This document shows, in pieces, positions 22,286 to 38,959 of a stretch of 64,000 nt of DNA (positions are counted from its first letter, which is position 1; each line of letters starts with the position of its first letter). The notes beneath the pieces were generated by a model that saw only the letters and a list, made by a program, of their open reading frames with translations, did no database searches and was not told the DNA's origin. The position numbers and the translations under genes were made by a program. The DNA comes from Rhodothermales bacterium (GTDB lineage: Bacteria; Bacteroidota; Rhodothermia; Rhodothermales; JANQRZ01), in NCBI GenBank assembly GCA_039944855.1, contig JBDUXZ010000022.1:62001-126000 (forward strand). The letters are read 5' to 3'.

Positions 22286-22295
22286 GAGTGAGGCG

Positions 22296-23564
22296 TCAGC
22301 AGTCCGGGGATTCGGGCGTGGCGTCGGGGGGCGCTGCCGCCTCTGCGTGGGGGCCGTGCTCGCACCAGAGGCACCGGCAGCGCTCGCCGTGGCAGGCCGG
22401 CTCGGCGAGCGGCGGGTGGGCCCCCTGCCGGGCGAGCTCGTGGAGGACGGACGTCGTGCGGGTGGGCTGGTAGAGCCGCCGGAGGGCTGCCACCGCGTTT
22501 CCTTCCGCTGCGCGGCCGAGCGCCCACTCGTAGCGCGCGGGAGCAAGCTGGCCTAAGACGACCCGGTTGGCGAGGGCGACCTCCAGCCCCGGCACGAGGA
22601 GCTGACGGCAGAGGGCGTCGTAGTTTTCACCCATGACGATCGCCCGGGCGGCCAGGACGCCGGAGAGCAGGGCGTGGCGCAGCCCGAGGCCCCAGAGCGC
22701 GTCCTGGAACCCCGCCCGTTCCCCCACGAAGTAGAACCGCCCGCTGCGCGTCCACGAGGCCGCCGTGCTGAAGTTGATCGCCCCCCCGCTCCGCCGGGGC
22801 GCACGCACGGCGCACCCGGTCACCTGCCGGACCGCTTCGAGGGTGTGGTCGAGGTAGGTGCCGCGCGGCTCCGTCTGGGCGGCCGGGTCGAAGATCCAGG
22901 TCGAAAGCGTCGCGCGTCCGCCGCGGACGAACAGCGAGGCGTAGCCGCCGGGGGCGAGGGCCGCGTCGAATAAGCCGAGGGCGGCATCCGGGTGGTCGGT
23001 CTCGAAGGCCACGCGCTCGACGCGGGCGTCGGCCGTGCGCGGGCCGGTCGCCACGACGACGTGGCGGGCGTCGCTGTGCGTGACGGGCTCCCCGAAGCGG
23101 AACGTGGCCCCGGCCGCCTCCGCCTGATCCTTCAGGCTCCGGTCGAGCGCGCCCTCGTGAGCGCCCCGCTCGACGAGGTAGAGCAGCGGGCGCGTGCCGG
23201 AGAGGGCGTGAGGCCGGCGCTCCGGCCCGTAGAACGTCACGGAATCGACGGGCTCGAAGCGAACACCGCTCGTGATGCCGAACCCGGCGAGCAGGGCCGC
23301 CGCGTCCTCCTCCGTCGACCAGTTCTCCAGGCTCTGCAACTCGCCGTCGAACCGCGCCCCGACGTCGTCGGCCTGCTCGAAGACGACGGGGGCGAAGCCC
23401 ACACGGGCGAGGTAGAGCGCAGCGGCCAGCCCGGCCGGGCCGGCCCCGATGACGTGGACCTCGCCTGCGCTCACGTCGGAGCCCCTCTGTTCGACCCCGA
23501 GCGAAGGGGCATTGGTAGAGGCGGCAGCATGGGGGGGCATCGTGGTCAAGGAGTTCGGAGTCAT
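22296..23564 (-). CDS. FAD-dependent oxidoreductase with Cys-rich C-terminal tail (paralogue 1)
   Basis: 422 residues. A GxGxxG dinucleotide motif (VHVIGAGPAGLAAALYLAR) about 45 residues in, then ERAGFQDALWGLGLRHALLSG in the C-terminal half, the flavin-contacting region of geranylgeranyl-reductase/lycopene-cyclase-like flavoproteins. The end carries CHGERCRCLWC (C-x4-C-x-C-x2-C, from about residue 391), a likely metal-binding motif. The neighbouring gene at 23561 encodes a paralogue with the same tail and identical spacing. The substrate is unknown; the location immediately downstream of a CopB-type copper ATPase suggests a metal or thiol redox role. Starts with ATG overlapping the stop of the paralogue (4 bp). 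Confidence 0.82.
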   Translation of the reverse strand: MTPNSLTTMPPHAAASTNAPSLGVEQRGSDVSAGEVHVIGAGPAGLAAALYLARVGFAPVVFEQADDVGARFDGELQSLENWSTEEDAAALLAGFGITSGVRFEPVDSVTFYGPERRPHALSGTRPLLYLVERGAHEGALDRSLKDQAEAAGATFRFGEPVTHSDARHVVVATGPRTADARVERVAFETDHPDAALGLFDAALAPGGYASLFVRGGRATLSTWIFDPAAQTEPRGTYLDHTLEAVRQVTGCAVRAPRRSGGAINFSTAASWTRSGRFYFVGERAGFQDALWGLGLRHALLSGVLAARAIVMGENYDALCRQLLVPGLEVALANRVVLGQLAPARYEWALGRAAEGNAVAALRRLYQPTRTTSVLHELARQGAHPPLAEPACHGERCRCLWCEHGPHAEAAAPPDATPESPDC

Positions 23565-24735
23565 GGCGTGGCCTCCATCTGGTAGGCATCCACACACGTG
23601 TCCATCGCAGACAGAGCGACGGAGCGGCCGTGGGTGCACCACAGGCAGGCGCAGCCCTCCTCCCCGCACGTCGTCTCACGCAGGTGGGGATGGATGCGGC
23701 GACGAGCGATCTCGTAGAGAAGCCTTTTTGAGTGGGTCGGTTGGTGGTGGTAGCGCAGGGTCCCCAGCAGGTCCCTCCCCTCCAGGCGGCGCAGCGCCCA
23801 TTCATACCCGTGGTTGCCCAGTTGGGAGAAGAGGAGCCGGTTGGCGAGGGACACCTCCAGTCGAGGTACGAGGTGCTTCTGGCAGAGCGCGTCGTAGTCC
23901 TCGCCGTGGGCGACGGCGCGGGCGGCGAGGACGCCGGAGTGCATCGCGTAGCGGAGTCCGAACCCCCAGAGCGCGTCCTGGAAACCGGCCCGCTCGCCGA
24001 CGAGATACCTCTGTCCCTGCCGGACCAGGGGCGCGCGCGGGCCGAAGGAGACGTACCCGCCGAACGGCCGGGGGCGCTGCATCGTGAGGCCGATCGTCTC
24101 GCGCAGGCGGTCGAGGGCGAGGCTGAAGTACCGGTGGGCTTGCTGGAAGTCGTCGAAGAGGCAGGTGGCGAAGGTGGCGCGGCCGTCGTAGACTAGGAGG
24201 TAGGCGTAGCCGCGCGGGGCGAGGTGCTCGTCCAGAAACGCGACGTATCCGTCGGGGTGCGTGGTCTCGAAGACGACCCCGCGCGCGATGGCATCCGGCC
24301 CGCGCGGCCCCGTCGCGACGATTACCGGTCCCGGGGGCGCGTGCTCGACGTGCTCGCCGAAGCGGATCTCGATGCCCGCCGCGAGCGCCTGCCGCTTCAG
24401 GCTCTGGTCGAGCGACGCCGGTGCGGTGCCCCGCTCGACGAGGTAGAACAGCGGTCGCGTCGGCCGGATCGGGTACTGCACCCCCGAAGGTCCGATGGCC
24501 GCCCCATCGCGGAAGGCCGCGCAGCAGAAGTCGGGCTCGATGCCGAGCGCAGCGACGGCCTCGGTCGCGTCCTCGTCCGTGGACCAGTTTTCCAGCCCTT
24601 GAAAGTCGCCGTCGAACCGCGTGCCCACGTCCGCCGCCTGCTCGATGACGACGGTTCGCAGGCCCGCCCGGGCGAGGGTGAGCGCCGCGGCGAGCCCTGC
24701 CGGCCCGGCTCCGATGACGTGGACGTCGGGTGCGC

Positions 24736-24739
<4 letters not shown>
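23561..24739 (-). CDS. FAD-dependent oxidoreductase with Cys-rich C-terminal tail (paralogue 2)
   Basis: 392 residues from a GTG start that overlaps the stop of the P-type ATPase gene (GTGA). The FAD motif is VHVIGAGPAGLAAALTLAR, the substrate side RFDGDFQGLENWST and the C-terminal flavin loop ERAGFQDALWGFGLRYAMHSG. Its tail has CGEEGCACLWC (C-x4-C-x-C-x2-C, from about residue 358), the same spacing as paralogue 1. Overall order and blocks are collinear with paralogue 1, so the pair arose by tandem duplication. Other possibilities are a lipid desaturase or reductase acting on isoprenoids. No membrane helix is evident. Confidence 0.82.
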
Positions 24740-26934
<2,195 letters not shown>

Positions 26935-26992
26935 GATCGTAGGGGGTGAGGGGCGAGGTGGAACGGGAGTCAGGGGGGCGCTCGGGGCGTGA

Positions 26993-28294
26993 TCAGCGGA
27001 CGGAGGTGTAGCCCCCGGGGACGCCGTTCTTCGAGAGGACGAGCTGCCAGAGCTGCGCGCCGCGCGCGCGGAACAGCCCGGCGCTCTGGAGGAGGTAGTA
27101 GCGCCACATCCGCCGGAACCGCTCGTCGTAGCGTCCCCGGAGGGACGGCCAGGCGCGTTCGACGTTCTCGTGCCACGCCATCAGCGTCCGGTCGTAGTGG
27201 GCACCGAGGTTGTGCCAGTCCTCCATCACGAACCGCCCTTCGGTGGCCCGCCCGATCTGCCGGATCGAGGGGAGCACCGAGTTGGGGAAGATGTAGCGCT
27301 CGATCCAGGGGTCGGTCGACCGCGTGGAATGGTTGCCCCCGATGGTGTGGAGCAGGAAGAGGCCGTCGTCCTTGAGGTGCCGACGCACGACGTCCATGAA
27401 CGTCCGGTACCGTTTCACGCCGACGTGCTCGAACATCCCGAGCGAGACGACGTGGTCGAACGGCTCCGGCTCCTCGAAGGCGCGGTAGTCCTGGAGGCGG
27501 ACCTCGATCGGGAGGCCCTGTAGCCTCGCACGAGCAAAAGCCACCTGCTCCTCCGACACGGTGATGCCGACGCCCTGCGCCCCATAGCGCTCCGCGGCAT
27601 AGGCGAGGAAGCTCCCCCACCCGCAGCCGACGTCGAGCACGCGGTCGCCCGGCTTCAGCCCGAGCTTGCGGCAGACGAGGTCGAGCTTGGCCTCCTGCGC
27701 CGCGTCGAGGGTGTCGGCCTCGGCCCAGTACGCGCAGGTGTAGACCATGCGCCGGTCGAGCATGGCCTCGAAGAGGTCGTTGCCGAGGTCGTAGTGGCGC
27801 TGCCCGACCTCGAAAGCCCTCGACAGGCGCGTCCGGTCGCCGAGGCGCGCAGTGAGCGCCTGGAGGAGCGTCCGTGGGCTGCGGATCGCACGCCGAACGG
27901 CGGCCCGGACGTCTGGACGGAGGAGGCGGTGGAACGTCTCGTCGAGGCGCTCGCCGTCCCACCACCCGTCCACGTAGCTCTCGCCGAGGCCGAGCGGGCC
28001 GCCGCGAACGACCCGCTTGTAGAAGCGCTCGTCGTGGACCTGGATGTCCCACGGGTTCGGGCCGTCGATGGCGAGCCCCGCGTGGTCCGCCAGCTCGAGG
28101 ACGACGCAGTGGGCGGGCGAGGTACCGGGGTGGTGAAGTGGACGAGGGCGTTCCGGGGGCCGTTTCGCCGGGGACGCTCCCTCCGAGGACGAGTGCCGGG
28201 ACGGCCCTGCAGGCTGTACGCGGGTGCCCCCTGCATCGCCGACCGCAGGTCGAGCGGACCCGTTAGAGGTGTGGACGTGAGAGACAGGCTTCAT
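26993..28294 (-). CDS. cfa: cyclopropane-fatty-acyl-phospholipid synthase
   Basis: 433 residues. SAM-binding block VLDVGCGWGSFLAYAAERYG, the lipid-side FEVGQRHYDLGNDLF and MVYTCAYW, and the C-terminal GMFEHVGVKRYRTFMDVV and HENVERAWPSLRGRYDERFRRMWRYYL are all family features. The enzyme adds a methylene bridge to unsaturated acyl chains of membrane phospholipids using SAM, which makes membranes less permeable. About 60 extra N-terminal residues are low complexity (SSEGASPAKRPPERPRP) and unlike the family. Its place between an exported protein gene and the copper ATPase gene, in an operon headed by a sigma factor, suggests membrane hardening under metal stress. Confidence 0.94.
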   Translation of the reverse strand: MKPVSHVHTSNGSARPAVGDAGGTRVQPAGPSRHSSSEGASPAKRPPERPRPLHHPGTSPAHCVVLELADHAGLAIDGPNPWDIQVHDERFYKRVVRGGPLGLGESYVDGWWDGERLDETFHRLLRPDVRAAVRRAIRSPRTLLQALTARLGDRTRLSRAFEVGQRHYDLGNDLFEAMLDRRMVYTCAYWAEADTLDAAQEAKLDLVCRKLGLKPGDRVLDVGCGWGSFLAYAAERYGAQGVGITVSEEQVAFARARLQGLPIEVRLQDYRAFEEPEPFDHVVSLGMFEHVGVKRYRTFMDVVRRHLKDDGLFLLHTIGGNHSTRSTDPWIERYIFPNSVLPSIRQIGRATEGRFVMEDWHNLGAHYDRTLMAWHENVERAWPSLRGRYDERFRRMWRYYLLQSAGLFRARGAQLWQLVLSKNGVPGGYTSVR

Positions 28295-28309
28295 GAGGGA
28301 CTGGCAGGT

Positions 28310-29020
28310 TCAGTCGGTGAGGGCTAGCACGACGGAGCTTCCGTCCGAGGCGGTGAGCACCTGGCGGGCGAGGCCGCGATTCGGGGTGACGATCTCCTCC
28401 ATGCGGTAACTCTGCGAGCGGACGCGGACGCCGAGCACGTAGAACTTGAGGTCGAGCCGTGACGCGAGCGTGTAGGCGGCCGGCGGCCCCTGCGTGGGCT
28501 GCACGGTCCGGTCGCGCAGGGCGATCCGGCTCCGGCCGCCGAGGAACCCCACCACGCCCTGCTCGACGGTGGCCTCCAGGCTGACCGGGGGCAGGGAGCC
28601 TGCGACCGGAGACGAGGGGTAGAGGACCTCGCCGCCGGTGACGCGCACCCGCACGCGCCGCCCCTCCGCCCCGACGAGGGCCAGCACGCTCATCACCATG
28701 TCGGCGTTCTCCACCCGGCACCGGATCGTCGTGCGGACGGTGTCGGTGGAGCCCCCGGCCTCGTCGGAACCGATCACCGTCACGGCCACCTCGATCTCGC
28801 CGTCGGCCTGGCGGATGCTACCGACCTCTAGCTCCTGGGTCTTCTGGAGCCGGCCTTGCTCGTCGAGGGTGCGGCGCTCGTACCGGTTCCCCTCGATCAA
28901 GAGCAGCGGCATCGCCGGATCCTGGGCGTGGATGGGAGCGGCCCACCCGACGCTCACGGCCACAAGGGCCATGCAGGCGACGCACTTCGCGATGCACTTT
29001 ATGGAGGCAGTACGAGCCAT
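28310..29020 (-). CDS. uncharacterised exported beta-rich protein
   Basis: 236 residues with a signal peptide (ACMALVAVSVGWAAPIHAQ). The rest alternates strand-like segments with a conserved-looking end (QSYRMEEIVTPNRGLARQV) and resembles DUF3108/TapB-type secreted proteins, where a YERRTLDEQGRLQ-like opening is followed by a lipocalin-like barrel. Function unknown. Three cysteines occur in the signal region and one inside (IRCRVE). The start codon overlaps the stop of the upstream PD-(D/E)xK-like gene (TGATG). It lies 16 bp upstream of cfa. Confidence 0.65.
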   Translation of the reverse strand: MARTASIKCIAKCVACMALVAVSVGWAAPIHAQDPAMPLLLIEGNRYERRTLDEQGRLQKTQELEVGSIRQADGEIEVAVTVIGSDEAGGSTDTVRTTIRCRVENADMVMSVLALVGAEGRRVRVRVTGGEVLYPSSPVAGSLPPVSLEATVEQGVVGFLGGRSRIALRDRTVQPTQGPPAAYTLASRLDLKFYVLGVRVRSQSYRMEEIVTPNRGLARQVLTASDGSSVVLALTD

Positions 29021-29667
29021 CAGCGAGGGATTTCGGTAGGGCTCGAGGCCCGGCGCCGCGCTTTGCGCAGGGTCATCAGGAAGCCGAGGACGGGGTCTTT
29101 GAGCTGGGCATGGTGGAGCACGTCCCAGTAGTCGCTGACGGTGCGCTGGAGGAACGCGACCACGTGGCCGAGGGGAACGACGAGGAGTCCCGGCTGCGCC
29201 ACCGGCTCGACGACGGAGGCGAAGACCACGAGCCGAACGCGGTGCCCGGCAGGCATCGTGGTCGTCCCACGGTCGATCAAGGCCTGCGCGAGGGCGTGGG
29301 CCTGCTCGGGCGCGCAGCAGCCGAACCGGGCCAGGACCACCTCGAGGACGTCCGGGCGGAGGAGCCCTTCGTTGAGGCGGGCGCGCCCCTCCTTCACCTC
29401 CCCCACGATCATATCGGCCTCCGTGCTCGCCACGCCCAGCACGGGGTCCGGCTCGAAGCGGGGGGGCGTCTCGCCTCGTGCTCCGGCGTGGCCCACGGTC
29501 CCCGTGGTGAGGCGTCCGGCCCCGGGGAACCGGAAGGCCAGCACGTCGAGGTCCGTTAGCGTGCGGTGACCGCCGTGGCGGGCGGCTTCCAGCACCGGGT
29601 ACTCGGTGACGGTGAGGTAGCCGTTGAGTTGGAGGTACGTGCGGACGAGGGCGACGGCGTGGTCCAT
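29020..29667 (-). CDS. PD-(D/E)xK-like nuclease-fold protein of unknown function
   Basis: 215 residues. The N-terminal helix (VRTYLQLNGYLTVTEYPV) is followed by LTDLDVLAFRF (Asp39, Asp41) and then MIVGEVKEG (Glu90, Lys92). This D...(E)xK spacing after a long N-terminal helix is the layout of PD-(D/E)xK nuclease folds. Whether it cuts DNA is unknown. Two adjacent cysteines (GCCAPEQ, residues about 115-117) may bind metal. Its place between the ECF sigma gene and an exported protein in a metal/lipid operon is unusual for a nuclease, so a non-nuclease role or a DNA-repair role under metal stress is possible. It overlaps the sigma gene end and the downstream start. Confidence 0.6.
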   Translation of the reverse strand: MDHAVALVRTYLQLNGYLTVTEYPVLEAARHGGHRTLTDLDVLAFRFPGAGRLTTGTVGHAGARGETPPRFEPDPVLGVASTEADMIVGEVKEGRARLNEGLLRPDVLEVVLARFGCCAPEQAHALAQALIDRGTTTMPAGHRVRLVVFASVVEPVAQPGLLVVPLGHVVAFLQRTVSDYWDVLHHAQLKDPVLGFLMTLRKARRRASSPTEIPR

Positions 29668-30257
29668 CAGGGAGCCGGGTTGGATGGGCAGGCGCAGTCG
29701 GTGTGGTCGTCGTCGGGGCAGGCCGTGCAGAGGGCTTCGAGCCGCTCGCGGAGCTGCTGCCGGGCGCGGTGGCGGCGGACGTTGAGGTTGTTCCGGGTGA
29801 TGCCGAGGCGGCGGGCCACGTCCTCGGGGTCCCGCCCCTCGAGCTCGATCTCCTCGATGAGCACGCGGTACTCCGGCTTGAGCGTCGGGAGCAGGGCGCG
29901 GAAGCAGAAGCACAACAGCGCGGCCTCCCGGGGGGAGACGGCCGGGTCGTGCTCGGCGGCGTAGTCCGTCATGGCACGGCGCTCGCGGGCGCGGCGGCGG
30001 TGGGTGTCGTGGACGGCGTTGCGGACGATGCGGTAGAACCACGGGATCAGCCGCTCGTCGTCGCGGAGGTCGGGCGCGGCCCGGAGCGCCTTGAGCAGGC
30101 TGTGCTGGAGGACGTCCTCGGCGCGGGCGGGCGCGACCCCCTGCCCCTCGATGAACGCGAGGAGGAGGTGGCGGCTCTCGGCGAGGAGGGCGTCGAGGCG
30201 CGCGGCCGTGGGCTCGGACTCGGCCGGTTGGGGTGGGTGAAGGGTCATGGTGTTCAT
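29667..30257 (-). CDS. ECF sigma factor with CxC linker and Cys-rich tail (CorE-like)
   Basis: 196 residues. Region 2 contains RAEDVLQHSLLKALRAAPDL and the WFYRIVRNAVHD block; region 4 contains LEGRDPEDVARRLGITRNNLNVRRHRARQQLRERL. Between regions 2 and 4 lies a CxC (Cys116, Cys118 in LLCFCFR), and the extreme C-terminus is CTAC...CAC (Cys177, 180, 188, 190). Metal-sensing ECF factors of the CorE family (Myxococcus) combine a CxC in the linker with a Cys-rich tail and need no anti-sigma factor. I infer the same mode. It heads the operon that encodes lipid enzymes, a copper ATPase and FAD proteins, whose genes follow with overlaps or small gaps. The start codon used is the ATG at 30257 (a second ATG lies 9 bp later). 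Confidence 0.85.
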   Translation of the reverse strand: MNTMTLHPPQPAESEPTAARLDALLAESRHLLLAFIEGQGVAPARAEDVLQHSLLKALRAAPDLRDDERLIPWFYRIVRNAVHDTHRRRARERRAMTDYAAEHDPAVSPREAALLCFCFRALLPTLKPEYRVLIEEIELEGRDPEDVARRLGITRNNLNVRRHRARQQLRERLEALCTACPDDDHTDCACPSNPAP

Positions 30258-30293
30258 CGGGATACAGACGCCGGAGCGGGCGTGCGCTTACAG

Positions 30294-31022
30294 TCAGGCC
30301 GTCGTGACCTCCGGGTCGTGCGGGATCGGCTCGCGTCTCTGACCCTCGTCTGAGGGCTCCTCCGAGGGTTCCTCGTAGCGGACGCCGGGGCGCGGGATGA
30401 AGCGGGGGACCTGCGCGGCGTAGGCGTCGTAGGCCGCGCCGAAGCGCGCACGGACCTCCCGCTCCTCGATGCGAGCGAGTCGGGCGTACATCCAGACCAG
30501 GACGGGAAACATCGCCAGCGTCAGGATCGTCGGCCACTGCACGAGGAAGCCGAGCAGGACGGCCACGAAGCCGACGTACTGCGGGTGGCGAACGCGGGCG
30601 TAGAGCCCCGTCGTCGCCAGACGGCCCTCGCGCTGCGCCTCGTAGAGCACGCGCCAGGCGCTCATGATCACGAGGACGCCGCCGCCGATGAGCACGTTGC
30701 TCAGCACGTGGAGCACGTTGAAGTGGGCCGCCCACGGGCTCCCCTCCCCGATGCCGAGGAGGGTCTGCCAGAGGTGGCCGGCGTCGTGCGAGAAGAGGTC
30801 GAGGCCGGGGTACCGGCTCCCGAGCCACCCCGACAGGAGGTAGATCGTCAGTGGGAACCCGTACATCTCCGCGAAGAGTGCCACGACGAAGGCGCTGAAG
30901 GCGCCGAACTGCCGCCAGTCGCGCCAGTTCTTCGGGCGCGTGAAGCTGAGGGCGAAGACGACGAAGATGGCCGACATGACGACGGCCATCAGCCAGTATC
31001 CGTATTCGTAAGGTCCGTTCAT
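30294..31022 (-). CDS. ICMT/PEMT-family membrane methyltransferase
   Basis: 242 residues with about five membrane helices. The C-terminal cofactor region TTGLYARVRHPQYVGFVAVLLGF, followed by EEREVRARFGAAYDAYAAQVPRF, is the hallmark of isoprenylcysteine carboxyl methyltransferase and phospholipid N-methyltransferase-like proteins, which use SAM and a membrane-embedded acceptor. The acceptor is unknown. The tail after about residue 212 is acidic and disordered-looking. It is on the same strand as the sigma gene with a 36-bp gap, so it may be part of the same transcript, placed upstream of the sigma gene. Confidence 0.82.
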   Translation of the reverse strand: MNGPYEYGYWLMAVVMSAIFVVFALSFTRPKNWRDWRQFGAFSAFVVALFAEMYGFPLTIYLLSGWLGSRYPGLDLFSHDAGHLWQTLLGIGEGSPWAAHFNVLHVLSNVLIGGGVLVIMSAWRVLYEAQREGRLATTGLYARVRHPQYVGFVAVLLGFLVQWPTILTLAMFPVLVWMYARLARIEEREVRARFGAAYDAYAAQVPRFIPRPGVRYEEPSEEPSDEGQRREPIPHDPEVTTA

Positions 31023-31107
31023 CGGAGGGTGGGGTCAGGGGACAGAGGGCCTCGGAGAGGCGGGCGATTTCAGCGGGAGCCGTGCGGGCAGGAGCCGCCG
31101 CGAGGGG

Positions 31108-31470
31108 TTAGCCCCCACAGCACGACGCGCCCCCGGTATCGGACGCCGGTGCGGGAGCGAGGGCGGGCTCCTGGGTGCGGATGTGGATGAAGGCCTCCAC
31201 TGGGAGGACGGCGATGACGCCGTCGCCCCGCTGCCCCGTATGGGCGGCACCGTGGATGGCCTGGACGAGCGGCTTCACGTTGCCTTCGTCGGCGAACACC
31301 TCGAGGCGTGCGTGGCGGGAAAGGTTGTCCCGGCCGAACGTGTTGGCGTACTCGCCCGCGCCGCGGACGTGGGTGACGGTGAGGCCGGCGGCCCCGGCCG
31401 CTACGAGCGCTTCGCGCACCTTGTCGAGGCAGCACTCGCGGATGATCGCGTTGATCTTCTTGTAGGTCAT
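31108..31470 (-). CDS. PII family protein with N- and C-terminal Cys pairs (PII-NG-like)
   Basis: 120 residues. The nucleotide-binding B-loop TGQRGDGVIAVLPV and the opening INAIIRECCLDKVREAL belong to the PII family. The T-loop lacks the usual uridylylated tyrosine; it is short and carries HARLEV. Cys13-Cys14 in the first helix and Cys117-Cys118 near the end (ASCCGG) could coordinate metal. The PII-NG group described in proteobacteria is linked to heavy-metal efflux genes and has a C-terminal metal-binding tail; I place this protein near that group by inference. A 15-bp direct repeat lies in its leader, 13 bp upstream of the start. Confidence 0.75.
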   Translation of the reverse strand: MTYKKINAIIRECCLDKVREALVAAGAAGLTVTHVRGAGEYANTFGRDNLSRHARLEVFADEGNVKPLVQAIHGAAHTGQRGDGVIAVLPVEAFIHIRTQEPALAPAPASDTGGASCCGG

Positions 31471-31482
31471 CGTCGGAGGGGT

Positions 31483-31514
31483 CAGGGGTTGAAGAAGGCC
31501 AGGGGTTGAAGAAG
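31483..31514 (-). repeat. 15-bp direct repeat in the leader of the PII-like gene
   Basis: Sense-strand unit CTTCTTCAACCCCTG occurs twice, 17 bp apart (31500-31514 and 31483-31497), 13 bp upstream of the start codon. It may be a regulator-binding repeat or a leader duplication. Confidence 0.8.
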
Positions 31515-31524
31515 AGGACGCGCC

Positions 31525-31603
31525 GCAGCGGGGCCGGCTGCGGGAGAGGGGGTGGTGGTTGGGCCAAGGCCCGTCCCTCCTGCCGCTGCACGGCCCTCGC
31601 TGC
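31525..31603 (-). terminator. large stem-loop after the 31609 gene
   Basis: On the minus strand GCAGCG-A-GGGCCG pairs with CGGCCC-CGCTGC, closing a ~54-nt loop that contains a nested GGGCC/GGCCC hairpin. It begins 5 nt after the stop codon of the 31609-32049 gene, so it could be a terminator or a processing site. There is no U-tract. Confidence 0.4.
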
Positions 31604-31608
31604 GGGCG

Positions 31609-32049
31609 TCACAGCGCGTCGTAGTCGTCCCGGTCGATCAGCCGCACGAGCTCGCCGGGGCTCAGGCACGACACCTCGTGCATCCGGTGGCTGTGGCGGA
31701 CGGCCACCTCCACGCCGGCTACGTCGAGGCGGTTGAGGCAGTGGGAGACGCCGGCGGCATCCGGGGCGCAGTCCTCGTCGGTGAGGACGCGCGCCTGCAC
31801 GGCGTGCGGGGCGACGGTGCCCCCGACGAGCTCGACCGGCACCACGCCGGGCTTATGCGGGAGCCGCTCCGCATCGGGGGTGATGAGGACGGCGCGGGCG
31901 TCGGCCCCGGCAGGTTGGAAGTGCGACACCCCGCTTCCCACCTCCGGCAGGGGTACGTCGGAGCGGCTCGCGAGGACACCGATGAAGATGAGGGCGACCG
32001 CGGCGGCGAGGCCGAAGAGGAGGGTGCGGCGGGCGAAGGGAGTACGCAT
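31609..32049 (-). CDS. exported or membrane-anchored small protein with Cys/His motif, family unknown
   Basis: 146 residues. The N-terminus has a positively charged start (RTPFARRT) and one helix (LLFGLAAAVALIFIGVLA), suggesting an anchor. The conserved-looking C-terminal half contains VLTDEDCAPDAAGVSHCLN and RHSHRMHEVSCLSPGELV, with three Cys and four His. I recognise the layout from metal loci but not a named family, so a periplasmic metal-binding role is inferred. The ATG before RTPFAR was chosen. A dyad operator lies upstream at 32180-32199. Confidence 0.65.
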   Translation of the reverse strand: MRTPFARRTLLFGLAAAVALIFIGVLASRSDVPLPEVGSGVSHFQPAGADARAVLITPDAERLPHKPGVVPVELVGGTVAPHAVQARVLTDEDCAPDAAGVSHCLNRLDVAGVEVAVRHSHRMHEVSCLSPGELVRLIDRDDYDAL

Positions 32050-32179
32050 GGCTCGGCGGGTAGGCGAGGGCAGTTCTGCGTGGGCGAGCACGGCTGGCCC
32101 CACGTGAGAGGCACCCGAGGGTGCGGCCTGCTCGCTGCTCTAAACCTCGCTCCGCGCACCTTTGTAAAGCCTTAGCGTA

Positions 32180-32199
32180 ACCTGAAAGTCTGTTAAGGT
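32180..32199 (-). promoter_or_regulatory. predicted metal-responsive operator (dyad copy 2, imperfect)
   Basis: ACCTGA-N8-TAAGGT with the same 20-bp spacing as the other copies; one half carries G in place of T. It lies about 130 bp upstream of the 31609-32049 gene (start 32049) and just downstream of the Met-rich gene. Extra half-sites (CTAAGG, AAAGGT) surround it. Confidence 0.5.
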
Positions 32200-32236
32200 G
32201 AGAGGCCTGGCCGGTGATGCGGAGGGCTAGGTGCCC

Positions 32237-33049
32237 TCACTCGCGCGAGGCGGAGGACCAGTGGACGGCGGCGATGCGCCAGCCGTCCGGGGCCGCGGCG
32301 TCGCGGCGGAGGAGCGCCGCGACGACGGCGCGGTCTCCGGCGGCGAGCGCGGTGTGGAAGCGGTCGGCCGTGCGGCTGGCGGCCTCCGCGGCACGGGCGT
32401 CGTCGGCCGACATCGGCCCGCGCTGCATGCCGTCCATCCGGCTGTGGTCCATGCCTTCCATCTGGTCGTGGTCCATGCCGCCCGGCATCATGCCGCCCTC
32501 CTTCATTCGCTCCTTCATGCCTTCCATCATCTGGCGCATCTCCGGGTCCGCCATCATCCGCTCGCGCATGGCGGGGTCGGCCATCATCTTCTGGTGCATC
32601 CGCATCATCCGCTGCATCATGGCCTGGCGCTCGTCCGGCGACATCGCCTGCATCCGCTCCATCATCCGCTCGTGCATCTGCTGCATCTGCTGCCGGCGCT
32701 CGTCGGGCGAGAGGGCGGCCATCCGCTCGCGCATCGCGGCCATGTCGTGGTCGCCGCCCATCATGGGGTCGCCCTCCATCATCTCGTGCATCATCTGACG
32801 CATCTCGGGGGCGGCCATCATCATCCGGTGCATGGCGGAGTCGGCCATCATGCGCTCGTGCATCCGCATCATCTGCGGCATCATGGCTTGCATGTCCTCC
32901 ATGCTCATCATGCCGTCGTGGTCCATCATGCCGCCGTGCTCCATCGGCATGGCCTTCATGGTGTCGGGGTGCTGGTGTTGGTGCTCCTGCGCGGAGGCGG
33001 CGGGCGTGAGCGCGAGCAGGAGGGCGAGGGTACACAGGGTGCGTTTCAT
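32237..33049 (-). CDS. Met/His-rich exported protein with an eroded C-terminal NTF2-like end
   Basis: 270 residues with a signal peptide (LCTLALLLALTPAASAQ). About 60 methionines by my count lie between residues 30 and 215, in MM pairs spaced by helical-looking acidic and basic residues (for example RQMMHEMMEGDPMMGG), with His-Gln and Asp-His-Asp inserts. Methionine clusters bind Cu(I) in the periplasm. The last ~50 residues, DRFHTALAAGDRAVVAALL then WRIAAVHWSS, look like the first helix and last strand of an NTF2/SnoaL domain with the middle missing. It lies upstream of a dyad operator and downstream of a multicopper oxidase gene, so a copper-store or chaperone role is inferred. Confidence 0.8.
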   Translation of the reverse strand: MKRTLCTLALLLALTPAASAQEHQHQHPDTMKAMPMEHGGMMDHDGMMSMEDMQAMMPQMMRMHERMMADSAMHRMMMAAPEMRQMMHEMMEGDPMMGGDHDMAAMRERMAALSPDERRQQMQQMHERMMERMQAMSPDERQAMMQRMMRMHQKMMADPAMRERMMADPEMRQMMEGMKERMKEGGMMPGGMDHDQMEGMDHSRMDGMQRGPMSADDARAAEAASRTADRFHTALAAGDRAVVAALLRRDAAAPDGWRIAAVHWSSASRE

Positions 33050-33101
33050 GGCGGTACGGGGTTGAGTTGGGTTCTCGTGAGGAGCCGGGAGGCTCGAAGG
33101 G

Positions 33102-34595
33102 CTAGACGTATCGGACTTCGCGGGCCATCCCCGCCTCCAGATGGTAGACGTTGTGGCAGTGGAAGAACCACCGGCCGGGGTTGTCGGCGACGAACTCGAA
33201 GGCCGCGCGGCCCATGTGCGCCGGGACGAGGACGGTGTCCTTCCGCACGCCGCCCGAGCGGAGGTCGCCGGTGCGGAAGAAGTGGCCGTGGAGGTGCATC
33301 GGGTGGATCATCGGGCTGCGGTTGAACATGGTCACCCGGACGCGCTCACCCTCGCGGATCTCCAGCGGCTCGGCGTCGGGGTAGGCCTGCCCGTCGATGG
33401 TCCACGCCGACGACATCATCCCGCCCGAGAGCGTGAGGTCGAACGTGCGGTCCGGCCGTGCGGGGGGCGGGGCGTCCTCGACGCCGCGGAGGTCGTCGAG
33501 GCGGAGGAGCCGGCCGTTGCCCAGACCGTCTGGGAGCGCCCCGGCGGGCGGACGCGCCGCTGCGGCATCGCGGTAGCGCAGGACGGCCTGGGCCGGGGCG
33601 CTGTCGCCCTCGACCGTAGCCGCCGCGATCGGCCACGCGCCGGGGTTGTCGGCCTCGAGGACGACGTCGTAGCGTTCGCCCATGCTGACGAGGAGGGCGT
33701 CGACGGTGACGGGGCGGACGGGGTAGCCGTCGGCGTGGGTGACGGTGAGGCGGTGGCCGCCGACGGCGAAGCGGAAGGTCGTCGCGCCGGAGGGGTTCAT
33801 GACCCGCATCCGGAGCCGCTCGCCGCGCCGGACCTCGACGGCGACGGGGTCGCTGGGGAGCCTGCCGTTGATGAGGAGGCCGGCGTACGGGGGCACCTGG
33901 CCGCCCATCATCCCGCCTCTCCTCCCCTGGCCCATCATGCCACGCCCGCCCATCATGCCGCCGCGCCCTCCACCGGTAGGACTGTCAGCGAGGGGCTCGG
34001 GCGTGCCCGGCAGGTAGTCGTCGAGGACGAGCGTGACCTCGCGATCGTAGGCCACGTGCGGCTCGCGCTCCTCGACGATGAGGGGGGCGATGAGCCCGCG
34101 GTCGAGCTGGAGGCCGACGTGGCTGTGGTAGAGGTAGCTCCCGGCCGGCTCGGCGGCGAAAGCGTAGACGAACTCCCCGCCCGGCGGGATCGGCTCCTGC
34201 GTCAGCCCCGGCACGCCGTCCATCGGGTTGGGCACGGGGATGCCATGCCAGTGGATCGTGGTGTCCGCCGGAAGCCGGTTCACGACCGTCGCCTCCAGCC
34301 GTTGGCCCTCCTGCAATCGGATCTCCGGCCCGGGGTACTCGCCGTTGTAGCCCCACGTGCGCCACACCTCGCCGGGGCCGACCTCGACCTCGATCTCCTC
34401 TGCCACGAGGCGGACCCGACGGGCCGGGCCCGCCGAGGCAGCGGCCTCTCGGGCGACCTCGTAGCTCGGCGCGCCAGGCACCGATACCGGCGCAGTGCGC
34501 GCCTTCGGGGAGGGGGTAGAGGTGTCTGTCCGGCAGCCGACGAGGACGGCGGCCCCGGCGAGGGCGGTCTGTTGGAGGAAGTGGCGACGGTCCAT
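33102..34595 (-). CDS. multicopper oxidase, CueO/CopA-like, Tat/lipoprotein-type N-terminus
   Basis: 497 residues. The N-terminus MDRRHFLQQTALAGAAVLVGC combines an RR motif with a lipobox-like LVGC, so it may be exported by Tat and anchored by lipid. Copper ligand blocks are HWHGIPVPNP, YLYHSHVGLQ, HPMHLHGHFF and FHCHNVYHLEAGM, giving the trinuclear and T1 sites. A Gly-Met insert (MMGGRGMMGQGRRGGMMGG) near residue 210 resembles the Met-rich inserts that raise Cu(I) oxidation in CueO. It would oxidise periplasmic Cu(I). Downstream is the Met-rich protein gene (52 bp), upstream the DUF302 gene. Confidence 0.93.
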   Translation of the reverse strand: MDRRHFLQQTALAGAAVLVGCRTDTSTPSPKARTAPVSVPGAPSYEVAREAAASAGPARRVRLVAEEIEVEVGPGEVWRTWGYNGEYPGPEIRLQEGQRLEATVVNRLPADTTIHWHGIPVPNPMDGVPGLTQEPIPPGGEFVYAFAAEPAGSYLYHSHVGLQLDRGLIAPLIVEEREPHVAYDREVTLVLDDYLPGTPEPLADSPTGGGRGGMMGGRGMMGQGRRGGMMGGQVPPYAGLLINGRLPSDPVAVEVRRGERLRMRVMNPSGATTFRFAVGGHRLTVTHADGYPVRPVTVDALLVSMGERYDVVLEADNPGAWPIAAATVEGDSAPAQAVLRYRDAAAARPPAGALPDGLGNGRLLRLDDLRGVEDAPPPARPDRTFDLTLSGGMMSSAWTIDGQAYPDAEPLEIREGERVRVTMFNRSPMIHPMHLHGHFFRTGDLRSGGVRKDTVLVPAHMGRAAFEFVADNPGRWFFHCHNVYHLEAGMAREVRYV

Positions 34596-34640
34596 GAGAG
34601 GGCCTCGGTAGATTCAGGAGCGACAGGTCAGCATGCGCAG

Positions 34641-35042
34641 CTACGCGGCGTCTACAGCGCGGCGCAGGCGATCGCGGATCTCGGTCGCGATCTCGCCGAG
34701 CGCGTCGTTCTCGACGGCCGACACCGAGGCGACGGGGTCCACGGCAGCGATCTCTGTCTGCCCGTCGCCGGCGTCGTGGAGGATCACGTTGCACGGGAGC
34801 ATCGTCCCGATGAGCGGCTCGGCCTGGAGCGCGCGGTGCGCGGCGGGCGGGTTGCAGGCCCCGAGGATCTTGTAGGGGCGGAAGTCGACGTCGAGCTTCT
34901 CCTTGAGCGTCGCCTGCACATCGATCTCGGTGAGGACGCCGAAGCCTTCCTCGGCGAGGGCATCGCGGACGCGGGCCTCGGCTTCTTCGAGGGAGACGTC
35001 GACGGTACGGGTGTAGTAGTAGGTGCCGGTTTTCGTGTTCAT
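34641..35042 (-). CDS. DUF302 domain protein
   Basis: 133 residues without signal peptide. The sequence matches DUF302: TVDVSLEEAEARVRDALAEEGFGVLTEIDVQ, KEKLDVDFRPYKILGACNPPAAHRAL and VILHDAGDGQTEIAAVDP. DUF302 proteins are small alpha/beta proteins of unknown function, often near metal and stress genes. The conserved ACNP cysteine is present. It lies 16 bp downstream of a methyltransferase gene and upstream of the oxidase gene. Confidence 0.9.
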   Translation of the reverse strand: MNTKTGTYYYTRTVDVSLEEAEARVRDALAEEGFGVLTEIDVQATLKEKLDVDFRPYKILGACNPPAAHRALQAEPLIGTMLPCNVILHDAGDGQTEIAAVDPVASVSAVENDALGEIATEIRDRLRRAVDAA

Positions 35043-35058
35043 GGGAGGTCTCAGCGGG

Positions 35059-35730
35059 TCAGAGGGGTTTGTGGGCGTCGATGCGGCGGAAAAGCCCGAG
35101 GGGTGTGAGGGGCCGGGCGTGGTCGAGGTGCCAGCCGGCGGCGCGGACGTTCCCGACGGTGCGCCGGGCGATGTGGACGCCGGTGCGGCGGTGGATGGGG
35201 CCGTCGAGCCGGTCCAACACGCGGCCTAGCGCCTCGGCGTCGGCACGCTGGTGCTCGATGAGGTGCAGGCGCCCGCCGGGCTTCGTGACGCGGAGGGCTT
35301 CGCGGAGTCCTGCTACCGGGTCCGGTACGGAGCAGAAGACGAACGTGGCGACGGCCTCGTCGAAGGTGTCGTCGGCGAAGTCGAGGTGCTCGGCGTCCAT
35401 CCGGTAGAGGGCGGCGGCCTTCGCCGGGTGGCGGGCTAGCACGCGGCGGGCCCGCTCCAGCATCCCCTCGGAGAGGTCCACGGCGGTGACTTGGACGCCT
35501 TCCGGGTAGTACGGCACGTTCTTCCCTGTCCCGACACCGACCTCGATCACCTCCGGCCCTTCGATGCGTTGCCACAGCGCCTTCCGCCAGCGGCGGTAGA
35601 GGAGCTGCTCGACGGGCCACTCCAGGGCATCGTAGAAGCGGGCGTGGCGGTCGTAGGCGCGCCGGGTGTGAGCGGTCTGCGCGTCGTCCGGAATCTTGTC
35701 CGGGATGGTAGGGTTGGGTGCGGCAGTCAT
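35059..35730 (-). CDS. class I SAM-dependent methyltransferase
   Basis: 223 residues. Motif I is VIEVGVGTGKNVPYYP, motif II AVDLSEGMLERARRVL, followed by MDAEHLDFADDTFDEAVATFVFCSVPDP, motif III and the post-motif LREALRVTKPGGRLHLIEH. This pattern is common to Methyltransf_11/25 enzymes of the UbiE/phosphatidylethanolamine-methylating type. The substrate is not deducible. It starts at the ATG before TAAPNP and lies 17 bp downstream of the SHOCT gene. Confidence 0.88.
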   Translation of the reverse strand: MTAAPNPTIPDKIPDDAQTAHTRRAYDRHARFYDALEWPVEQLLYRRWRKALWQRIEGPEVIEVGVGTGKNVPYYPEGVQVTAVDLSEGMLERARRVLARHPAKAAALYRMDAEHLDFADDTFDEAVATFVFCSVPDPVAGLREALRVTKPGGRLHLIEHQRADAEALGRVLDRLDGPIHRRTGVHIARRTVGNVRAAGWHLDHARPLTPLGLFRRIDAHKPL

Positions 35731-35747
35731 GGCGGTAGCGTGTGGCT

Positions 35748-35984
35748 TCAGCGGTCGCGGAGGAGGACGGCCTTCCGCTCCTCGTATTCCTCCGTCGCGA
35801 TCTCGCCGTCGGCGTAGCGGCGCTGGAGGCGGTCGAGCGGGAGTTCGTGCGGGTTCGTCGCCGTCGGTTCCGAAGGGGCGGGCGGGCGGCGGGTGAACGT
35901 CCACCAGACGGCCACAATCGCGGCGATCCAGAAGAGCCACCAGAACCAGTGCATGCCGATCATGTAGTGCGGGAAGTCGTACAT
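35748..35984 (-). CDS. SHOCT-domain small membrane protein
   Basis: 78 residues: one helix (WFWWLFWIAAIVAVWWTF) followed by a linker and the SHOCT motif (DRLQRRYADGEIATEEYEERKAVL), a short helical oligomerisation motif. Aromatic residues crowd the membrane segment. The next gene downstream, 17 bp on, encodes a methyltransferase. The role is unknown; such proteins are frequent next to copper resistance genes in Bacteroidota. Confidence 0.87.
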   Translation of the reverse strand: MYDFPHYMIGMHWFWWLFWIAAIVAVWWTFTRRPPAPSEPTATNPHELPLDRLQRRYADGEIATEEYEERKAVLLRDR

Positions 35985-36040
35985 CGCAGGAATTGTTTGG
36001 TGTGATCAGGGGTACGGAAGGCGTCCGAGGTCACGAGGCG

Positions 36041-36808
36041 CTATCGCCAGAGACGGACGCCGACGACGAAGAGCACCTCGCTGGTCTCCTCGCCCTCGGC
36101 CTCGGCGAAGTCGGCCGCGCCGCCGAACCGGTTCAGCCAGCTCACGCCGACGTACGGAGCGATCTCGCGCCGGATCTCGTAGCGGAGCCGTAGCCCGAGC
36201 TCGACGTCGTTCAGCCCGGCCCCGACGCCCCACTCCTCGACCTCCTGGAGCGCGACGTTGACCTCGGCCTCGGGCTGGACGACGAGGCGCTGCGTGAGGA
36301 GGAGGTCGTAGGATCCCTCGAACCGCGCCGAGAGGTCGCCCTCGGCCGAGAGGAAGAGCGCGGGCTCGACCTCGAACCAGTACGGCGCGAGTCCTTCGAG
36401 CCCGACGGCGAGGAGGGGCCGGGCGCGCACGTCGCCCCCGCCGAACTCGGTGTCGAGCCTCAGCCCGGCCTGGGCCTCGAAGTAGGGGCTGATGAGGCGG
36501 CTGTAGAGCGCTTGGGCCTCGGCCTCGCCTTCGCCCTCGGCGACGAGCCCCTCGCCCTCGGCCTTGAGCCAGAACCGGGTGTAGTCGTTGCCGATCCGGT
36601 AGAACCCTTCGAGGGCGGCGGGGACGCCGTCGGCCGCAGGGGCCACCTCGAAGAGGTCGAGGAGGGCGAGGCTGTAGAGGTGCTGGTCGCCGGCGACGCC
36701 CTCGTCCGGGCGGAAGGCGGGGTACTCGGGGAAGGGCGGCTCGTCCTGGGCCACGGCGGGCGCGGCGGCGAGAAGGAGCATGAGGGACAGAAGAAGGAAG
36801 CGAGGCAT
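36041..36808 (-). CDS. copB: copper resistance protein B, outer-membrane
   Basis: 255 residues with a signal peptide (LLLSLMLLLAAAPAVAQ). The body fits CopB: early LYSLALLDLFEVA and FYRIGNDYTRFWLKAEGEG, then beta strands such as LISPYFEAQAGLRLDTEF, and the terminal APYVGVSWLNRFGGAADFAE and VLFVVGVRLWR. CopB is an outer-membrane barrel encoded after CopA in copper operons. Here it lies 53 bp downstream of a CopA-type oxidase gene on the same strand, which supports the call. The usual N-terminal Met/His-rich stretch is absent; the linker is short and acidic. Confidence 0.9.
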   Translation of the reverse strand: MPRFLLLSLMLLLAAAPAVAQDEPPFPEYPAFRPDEGVAGDQHLYSLALLDLFEVAPAADGVPAALEGFYRIGNDYTRFWLKAEGEGLVAEGEGEAEAQALYSRLISPYFEAQAGLRLDTEFGGGDVRARPLLAVGLEGLAPYWFEVEPALFLSAEGDLSARFEGSYDLLLTQRLVVQPEAEVNVALQEVEEWGVGAGLNDVELGLRLRYEIRREIAPYVGVSWLNRFGGAADFAEAEGEETSEVLFVVGVRLWR

Positions 36809-36861
36809 AGCAGCAGGCGAGGAGATGAGCGAGAGTGCGGTCGGGGGCCAACCCTACGGGG

Positions 36862-38772
36862 TCACCCCCGCGACGGGTAGAGTGCGGCGATCTGGTCGGG
36901 ACCCCACTCCTCGGCGCGCTGGACCATCGCCACCCTGAACATGCCGAGCTCCATGTGGTAGAGCACGTGGCAGTGGAAGGCCCACGGCCCGAGCGCGTCG
37001 ACCTCGACGAGGAGCGAGAGCCGCTCGGCCGGCTTCACGATGACGGTGTGGACGCGGGGGATGCGCTCGCCGTGGCCGTTCTCGAGCTCCATCCACATCC
37101 CGTGGAGGTGCATCGGGTGGTTCATCATCGTGTCGTTCACCATCGTGAGCCGCACGCGCTCGCCGTAGACGAGCGGGATGAGCGGCTCCTCGGCGTAGGT
37201 CTTCCCGTTGATCGACCACATGTAGCGCTCCATGTTGCCGGTGAGGTGGAGCTCGATCTCGCGGTCGGGCGCGCGGCGCGGCTCCGCGTGGAGCGCCTTG
37301 AGGTCGGTGTAGACGAGGACGCGGTGGGGGGCGTCTTCCAGCCCGACGCCGGGCTCGTGGAGGCGGCTCCGCGTGACGTCCGGGGCCATCGCATTGGCCG
37401 GGCCGTGGCCGTCTGCGCCGTGGGGCGTCGGCTCGGGGAGCGTGCCGGGCGGGCGGAGGCCGGCGTGGTCGACGCCCGGCATCGCCACTTCGTCCGTGTT
37501 CATGCCGTGGTCCATCCCCCCGTGACCCATCACCGGAGCAGCGGCCTCGGGGTGGTCGAGCGCAGGAGGCTCGGCCATCCCCTCCATCGCGCCATGATCC
37601 ATGCCGCCGTCGCCCATGTCCATCCCGGCGTGGTCCATCCCGGCGCCGCCGTGGGCCATCCCCATGTCCATCATCGTGAGGCTCGGGCGCTCGCGCTGCT
37701 CGGGGACCGGGGCTGTCATGCCGGGACGCGGGGCGAGCGTGCCACGCGCGTAGCCCGAGCGGTCCATCGACTCGGCGAAGACGGTGTAGGCGCGGTCACC
37801 GGGCTCGACGACGACATCGTAGGTCTCGGCGATGCCGATGCGGAACTCGTCCACGGTGACGGGCTCGACGTGCTGCCCGCTCGCCTGCATGACGGTGAGC
37901 GGGAGGCCGGGGATGCGGACGTCGTAGAACGTCCCCGCACTCGCGTTGACGAAGCGGAGGCGGACGCGCTCGCCGGGGCGGAAGAGCGCGCTCCAGCCGG
38001 GCTCCGGCGCCTGCCCGTTCATGAGGAAGGTGTACGTCGCCCCCGTGATGTCGGCGATGTCGGTGGGGTCCATCCGCATCCCGTCCCAACTCAGCCGGTC
38101 CCCAAGCGGCATCCCCTCGCCCGAGAGCAGGCCGGCGAGCGTCTGCCGCTGGAAGTTGTAGTAGTTCGGCCGCGCCTTGAGGTTGTCGAGCACGGCGTGG
38201 GGGTCCTCGAACGTCCAGTCCGAGAGGACGACGACGAGCTCGCGGTCGAACCGGTAGGGCTCACTGCCGGCCGGGTCGATCACGAGCGGGCCGTAGTGGC
38301 CGAGCTGCTCCTGGAAGGCCGAGTGGCTGTGGTACCAGTACGTCCCGAACTGCCGGATCGGGTAGCGGTACTCGAAGGTCGAGCGCGCGGGGATGCCGGG
38401 GAAGTTCACGTTCGGCACGCCGTCCTGGCTGTTGGGGAGGATGAGGCCGTGCCAGTGGACCGAGGTGTCCTCGTCCAGCCGGTTGTGGACGCGGATGATG
38501 GCCTCGTCGCCCTCGGTGAAGCGCAGCAGCGGGCCGGGGACCCCGCCGTTGATCGTGACGGCCTCGCCCTCGTCGCCGCCGAAGAACAGCTTCGTCCGGT
38601 CGATGTAGAGGTCGTACTCGACGAGGCTGCCGGCGCGGCGGGTCGGGGCGAGGCCGGGGGGGCGAAGCGGGTCGCTGGGGAGGGCGGAGCGCGCCCACGC
38701 GGGCGTGACGGCGCTGACCCCGGCGAGGAGGCCGAAGGCGGAGGCGTTGCGGAGGAAGAGGCGGCGGTTCAT
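36862..38772 (-). CDS. copA: multicopper oxidase CopA
   Basis: 636 residues. A twin-arginine-type N-terminus (MNRRLFLRNASAFGLLAG) suggests Tat export. Copper ligand blocks are HWHGLILPN, YWYHSHSAFQEQ, HPMHLHGMWMELEN and FHCHVLYHMELGMFR. Between domains 2 and 3 is a Met/His-rich insert (MDMGMAHGGAGMDHAGMDMG and onward) typical of CopA and proposed to bind several coppers. It oxidises or sequesters periplasmic copper. Downstream comes CopB (53 bp). Upstream is a 187-bp gap with a dyad operator at 38869-38888. Confidence 0.95.
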   Translation of the reverse strand: MNRRLFLRNASAFGLLAGVSAVTPAWARSALPSDPLRPPGLAPTRRAGSLVEYDLYIDRTKLFFGGDEGEAVTINGGVPGPLLRFTEGDEAIIRVHNRLDEDTSVHWHGLILPNSQDGVPNVNFPGIPARSTFEYRYPIRQFGTYWYHSHSAFQEQLGHYGPLVIDPAGSEPYRFDRELVVVLSDWTFEDPHAVLDNLKARPNYYNFQRQTLAGLLSGEGMPLGDRLSWDGMRMDPTDIADITGATYTFLMNGQAPEPGWSALFRPGERVRLRFVNASAGTFYDVRIPGLPLTVMQASGQHVEPVTVDEFRIGIAETYDVVVEPGDRAYTVFAESMDRSGYARGTLAPRPGMTAPVPEQRERPSLTMMDMGMAHGGAGMDHAGMDMGDGGMDHGAMEGMAEPPALDHPEAAAPVMGHGGMDHGMNTDEVAMPGVDHAGLRPPGTLPEPTPHGADGHGPANAMAPDVTRSRLHEPGVGLEDAPHRVLVYTDLKALHAEPRRAPDREIELHLTGNMERYMWSINGKTYAEEPLIPLVYGERVRLTMVNDTMMNHPMHLHGMWMELENGHGERIPRVHTVIVKPAERLSLLVEVDALGPWAFHCHVLYHMELGMFRVAMVQRAEEWGPDQIAALYPSRG

Positions 38773-38868
38773 GGCGGAGAGTGGCAGCAGGGGCAGAGAG
38801 CGGCAGTAGGGGCAGAGGTGTCGGCTAGAGTGTTCTACAGGTGGGAGCGCGCGGAGTGCGCGGAGAGC

Positions 38869-38888
38869 ACCTTAAAAGCCCCAAAGGT
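38869..38888 (-). promoter_or_regulatory. predicted metal-responsive operator (dyad copy 3)
   Basis: ACCTTA-N8-AAAGGT, one base from perfect, with the same 20-bp spacing as the other copies. It lies 97 bp upstream of the CopA-type oxidase start. The rest of the 187-bp gap shows no other clear element. Confidence 0.6.
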
Positions 38889-38959
38889 TGGGGTTCAAAC
38901 GCGATTCGAGCGGCTTTTTCAGGCTCGGGGGCTCGTTCCGGGTCGTTCACTGGGAAGGG

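Follow-up and report, generated by a model that had tools for sequence, protein, structure and literature searches.

A CorE-like ECF sigma factor with a variant sensor residue in a lipid and copper gene cluster

Few sigma factors read metals by means of a tail of their own; those of the CorE type do, and the basis on which they distinguish one metal from another is an unsolved question. A group of 21 sigma factors carrying such a tail, the cysteine-rich domain (CRD), was published in 2011; only 4 cysteines of the CRD are invariant among them (residues 181, 184, 192, and 194 of CorE), and no linked anti-sigma factor was reported for these proteins (PMC3107203). A second published signature of the family is a CxC motif ahead of sigma4. 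In CorE itself, replacement of C189 by alanine nearly abolishes activation by copper, and single changes of CRD cysteines yield proteins that are either constitutive or dead. The family has been reported in Alpha- and Deltaproteobacteria, Acidobacteria, Verrucomicrobia, and Nitrospira (PMC3107203), and the names SigZ and ECF238 are in use for the wider group that absorbed ECF44.

The sigma factor, its cysteines, and its family

The window, by which we mean the whole stretch of 64 kb of DNA analyzed here, contains a gene for a CorE-like ECF sigma factor of 196 residues at 29667..30257 (minus strand, ATG start). The protein matched the Pfam domains Sigma70_r2 (PF04542) and Sigma70_r4_2 (PF08281) above cut-off and no further domain. 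It has only 6 cysteines: C116, C118, C177, C180, C188, and C190. The first 2 form a CxC motif (CFC, codons 116–118, 29904..29912, minus strand) in the linker between sigma2 and sigma4 or at the start of sigma4, while the others make up a CRD (CTACPDDDHTDCAC, codons 177–190, 29688..29729, minus strand) with the pattern C177-x2-C180-x7-C188-x-C190, which is exactly the published spacing of C-x2-C-x7-C-x-C. Both motifs were thus found at the residues where a preliminary description of this DNA had placed them. Given a local cysteine frequency of 0.75%, the probability that 4 given positions are all cysteine is approximately 3e-9, and all 6 cysteines were invariant in 12 of the 12 sequences in an alignment of diverse relatives from several phyla. 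An AlphaFold model of the protein, made from a three-row alignment, reached a pTM of 0.37, which is too poor to place a metal site.

The best match among NCBIfam subfamilies was SigZ (TIGR02959), which at 85.5 bits remained under the curated cut-off of 168.65 bits. Relatives were sought on plasmids and in genomes of the same class (245), of the phylum (395), of the phylum to which an Opitutaceae locus belongs (289), and of a fourth group (301). Near the host, sigma factors with a CRD are rare (18/245 genomes of the class and 7/395 of the phylum). A tree was built from 55 CRD sigma factors, one SigZ-like protein, and 15 further sigma-70-type proteins encoded in the genome from which the window comes; the CRD itself was left out of the alignment, and CorE and CorE2 were not among the rows. 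All CRD sigma factors, including the window protein, fell on a single branch (support 99*; 100/99 in a second, more careful tree), which also holds the published members PHZ_p0174 (Phenylobacterium zucineum) and RLO149 (Roseobacter litoralis), and the 15 other sigma factors of the genome fell outside it. The check on a tree of ECF groups proposed in the preliminary description therefore placed the protein with published CRD sigma factors. As cysteine spacing, tree position, and the promoter motif described below all agree, we regard its assignment to the CorE-like (former ECF44) group as secure on sequence grounds, and the CorE-like identity claimed earlier is borne out. The accompanying idea that the family would hereby be extended beyond Myxococcus is not new, since members were already known elsewhere (PMC3107203); only the host range and the sub-clade are extended.

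One feature had been overlooked in that earlier description. The residue equivalent to C189 of CorE is a histidine in the window protein (His185; codon 185, 29703..29705, minus strand). The window clade comprises 9 rows (support 100/96), none of which has cysteine at this position, the 8 nearest relatives of the window protein carrying His, Phe, or Tyr instead; the window clade is nested in a clade of 22 rows (97/91), of which the other full-length members keep the cysteine. A constraint that forced all members lacking this cysteine into one clade was rejected (AU p 0.004), indicating that it was lost in the window clade separately from its loss in Alphaproteobacteria. In addition, the CorE2-specific Cys174, which directly follows the second CRD cysteine, corresponds to Pro181. 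As neither the ligand set of CorE nor that of CorE2 is complete, the metal cannot be read from the protein's sequence. Of the CorE-like metal sensing proposed before, the cysteine set and the family stand, but copper sensing cannot be transferred from CorE, given His185 and Pro181 at the positions of C189 and C174. The protein would sense a thiophilic metal, and the neighboring genes make copper the likeliest one, although its response to copper may be weak or absent, since C189 is replaced by His185.

Promoter-like motif and gene surroundings

Comparison of upstream regions yielded the motif TGTAA-N17-CGTC. It occurs a single time in the 64 kb (0.12 matches per window expected by chance), as a promoter-like site (TGTAAGCGCACGCCCGCTCCGGCGTC, 30267..30292, minus strand) positioned 9 bp ahead of the ATG of the sigma factor gene. 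Among the CRD sigma factors, 11/54 had the strict motif in the 150 bp that precede the gene, where 0.02 were expected from dinucleotide shuffles, and 19/54 had a looser form (0.13 expected). Each locus of the window clade carries the site either ahead of the sigma factor gene or ahead of the ICMT gene that precedes it, and the motif also adjoins CRD sigma factors on plasmids of Alphaproteobacteria and Nitrospirota. The −35 element of CorE contains AAC and is separated from the −10 element by 16–18 nt, with which the motif of the window family agrees. We infer that the site at 30267–30292 acts as a promoter, and its position suggests that autoregulation, with the sigma factor gene as head of an operon, is likely. 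The role of operon head, put forward in the preliminary description, is supported by this putative promoter, but a gene on the same strand ends just 36 bp upstream.

Several other candidate sites and patterns were rejected. The form GTAAC-N(15-17)-CGTC has no match in the window, and the clade uses TGTAA[G/T] instead. A genome-wide regulon could not be drawn from the motif alone; the 4.6 Mb contain 16 matches to it and 14 to the same pattern reversed. No more than 4 of the 16 lie closely upstream of a plausible start, namely ahead of both sigma factor genes of the genome, the CopA ATPase gene near the second one, and a TolC-like gene, where the spacer is 18 nt long, and the remaining matches were for this reason not called. 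A TGTAAGA-N17-CGTC match before a cupredoxin-like gene in 3 loci (L031–L033) overlaps an inverted repeat (GAAAGACGCC...GGGCGTCTTTC), which is probably a terminator, and was not counted. Within the window's order, K or R at position x of the sigma4 motif NNL-x-VR pairs with C as the sixth base of the −35 element, and N or H with T or G, but covariation of this residue and base as a general rule was dismissed, as alphaproteobacterial members break the pattern.

Downstream of the sigma factor gene, the genes continue in the same direction (minus strand), never more than 58 bp apart, through 2 genes for FAD-dependent oxidoreductases. The first of this run (29020..29667) overlaps the sigma factor gene by 1 nt, encodes a 215-residue protein of no known family, and is found in 4 loci of the clade; judged by eye, the D-x-D-V and E-x-K motifs of its product look nuclease-like. 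It is followed by genes for a DUF3108-like protein with a signal-like start (28310..28972), a cyclopropane fatty acyl phospholipid (CFA) synthase (26993..28294; scoring 574 bits, with the cut-off at 400), a copper P-type ATPase of the CPH (P1B-3, CopB) class with a His-rich start, GYNx4P, and MSxST (24736..26934), and the 2 oxidoreductases (23561..24739 and 22296..23540). On the other side of the sigma factor gene, an ICMT/PEMT-type membrane methyltransferase is encoded at 30294..31022, also on the minus strand; its gene adjoins that of the sigma factor in almost every locus of the clade. No anti-sigma families were found among the neighboring genes scanned, in keeping with the earlier statement that no anti-sigma gene adjoins. 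The lipid and copper surroundings noted at the same time are real as well, and recur in relatives: genes for CFA synthase or ICMT occur within approximately 4 kb of CRD sigma factor genes on plasmids of Sulfitobacter, Roseibium, Paracoccus, Roseovarius, Pseudorhizobium, and Indioceanicola.

A CPH ATPase is encoded near the sigma factor in every locus of the window clade that could be read far enough, although this counts as one evolutionary association rather than many, as the clade is a single lineage. Sigma factors that keep Cys189, and those fused to another domain (see below), adjoin ATPases of the CPC (CopA) class, and a few of these loci also have the CPH type. P1B-3 ATPases, of which CPH, GYNx4P, MSxST, and a His-rich start are hallmarks, are listed as Cu(II) pumps, yet CopB of Enterococcus moves Cu(I) (PMC5552934).

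The wider region from 20912 to 40093 (minus strand) consists of about 18 co-directional genes, which include genes for 2 multicopper oxidases, a Met-rich protein, and DUF302 and DUF2231 proteins. No CorE-type site is present in the half of it that lies upstream of the sigma factor gene, which may be controlled in another way. Within this copper cluster, the gene at 31108–31470 (minus strand) encodes a P-II-like protein (matching Pfam P-II, below the NCBIfam cut-offs) with the C-terminal end ...GGASCCGG, possibly a metal-linked relative of P-II. Plasmids of Sulfitobacter (L100), Paracoccus (L106), and Roseovarius (L109) each carry a divergent pair of CRD sigma factor genes with 2 tail types per plasmid, one of which adjoins genes for CFA synthase and type II GAPDH.

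A second copy and relatives fused to an HMA domain

The same genome encodes a second CorE-like sigma factor (G000:C8:15864-16415; L021:9844-10428), which has the full CorE pattern (CRACAEHGCLDCTC), including C189. Approximately 20 bp after its gene follows a separate HMA gene in another reading frame, and the locus further contains a gene for a CPC ATPase, which has its own TGTAACC-N17-CGTC site, and one for a CPH ATPase. In 6 loci from 5 genomes, all of the same order, the sigma factor and its CRD are continued in frame by a C-terminal HMA (copper chaperone) domain (Pfam HMA, 5.6e-8; L023:8975-9787, L024:9346-10158, L028:9730-10536, L035:11461-12261, L036:10080-10883, and L116:4399-5211). These fused proteins have a shortened CRD, C-x2-C-x2-C-x2-C-x-C, and a Met in the linker between sigma factor and HMA domain could serve as a second start. 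A CopA ATPase gene lies alongside, and Cus-type RND genes are divergent. In both the second-copy and the fused groups, the motif is found ahead of the sigma factor gene as well as of the CopA ATPase gene. No published description of such fusions was found in a limited literature search.

The authors of the CorE study postulated a copper chaperone for CorE, of which the identity was not given. In M. xanthus, an HMA protein is the product of the CorE-regulated gene MXAN_3427, the neighbor of corE (MXAN_3426). The fused relatives hint at which protein hands copper to CorE, and we hypothesize that the HMA domain could be a copper donor for the sigma factor. Tentatively, this may be taken a step further, to a scheme that we hold to be possible but doubtful, in which 2 insulated CorE-type circuits exist. 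In the window type, the cysteine would have given way to histidine or an aromatic residue, alongside TGTAA[G/T] sites and a Cu(II)-class CPH ATPase, whereas the second-copy and HMA-fused type would combine GTAAC sites with a Cu(I)-class CPC ATPase and its own HMA chaperone, next door or fused, that loads the copper. If true, this would identify the postulated copper donor of CorE, and sensor and pump would be co-adapted to one form of copper.

Proposed mechanism and comparison with known systems

Our favored explanation, which we think is probably correct, is a CorE-like one-protein metal switch (former ECF44, in the neighborhood of SigZ/ECF238) that amplifies itself and drives its own operon. 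When metal is not in excess, the cell would contain little of the sigma factor, in an inactive state. A thiophilic metal would bind the CxC of the linker, the 4 cysteines of the CRD, and probably His185, upon which sigma2 and sigma4 would rearrange to bind RNA polymerase as well as promoters that read TGTAA[G/T]-N17-CGTC. Through the predicted promoter upstream of its own gene, the sigma factor would amplify itself, along with its co-directional targets: the overlapping gene for a protein of unknown function, and those for the DUF3108-like protein, the CFA synthase, the CopB-type ATPase, and the FAD oxidoreductases. Their products would export copper and harden the membrane lipids against it.

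In a rival reading, the protein would be a CRD sigma factor that, like CorE2, responds chiefly to Zn(II), to Cd(II), or to more than one metal, the copper genes then being induced as part of a general metal response. C189 has been lost, CorE itself is published to respond weakly to Cd and Zn, and 4 thiols suit both of these metals; the linked genes are copper-specific, however, including those for the CPH ATPase and the multicopper oxidases, and the CorE2-specific Cys174 is missing as well, leaving this a reading of limited probability. It is unlikely that the CRD is instead a permanent structural site for a metal such as Zn, with the sigma factor controlled by its amount alone, via autoregulation and an upstream regulator. 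While CxxC...CxC is also the pattern of structural zinc sites, and several published CRD members, none of them tested, have no C189 (PMC3107203), the CRD of CorE is regulatory, as changes of its cysteines make the protein constitutive or dead.

Finally, the sigma factor gene and the gene at 29020–29667 could form a canonical ECF pair, in which the latter would encode an unrecognized anti-sigma factor, and its place directly downstream with a 1-nt overlap is typical of anti-sigma genes. Profile searches with its product gave no family match of any kind, however. The gene is absent from the 5 loci of another genus of the clade, in which the ATPase gene directly follows that of the sigma factor, and in the loci of one more genus its homolog does not adjoin the sigma factor gene. 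The product is therefore not an obligate partner of the sigma factor, and published CRD sigma factors have no linked anti-sigma factor (PMC3107203). With no family match and no conservation along the clade, we rejected an anti-sigma role, which appears very improbable.

Among the closest described systems is CorE of M. xanthus (MXAN_3426; PMC3107203). The 2 proteins share the same build of sigma2, linker CxC, sigma4, and CRD, 4 invariant CRD cysteines at the same spacing, and the absence of a linked anti-sigma factor. Both have genes for multicopper oxidases and a CopB-type ATPase as neighbors or targets, and both are associated with an AAC-type −35 element 16–18 nt from the −10 element. They differ in C189, which is His185 in the window, and in the −35 sequence (GTAAC for CorE, TGTAAG for the window); unlike corE, the window gene would also head a run of lipid and copper genes. 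CorE2 of M. xanthus (MXAN_5263) has the same build and the 4 invariant cysteines, but its Cys174 and C178 are replaced by Pro181 and His185 in the window protein (PMC9023288, PMC8999054). With its changed decisive residue, predicted promoter, and different copper pump, the window clade offers a ready-made set of natural variants for the question of metal discrimination. PHZ_p0174 and its plasmid-borne relatives similarly have no cysteine at the C189 position, where Phe is found, and share the motif family, and the relatives adjoin genes for CFA synthase or ICMT, but they occupy a separate branch of the tree and lost the cysteine independently (AU p 0.004). OrbS of Burkholderia cenocepacia likewise carries a C-terminal cysteine metal sensor aboard an ECF sigma factor, although its cysteines are spaced differently and Fe(II) inhibits rather than activates it (PMC9023288).
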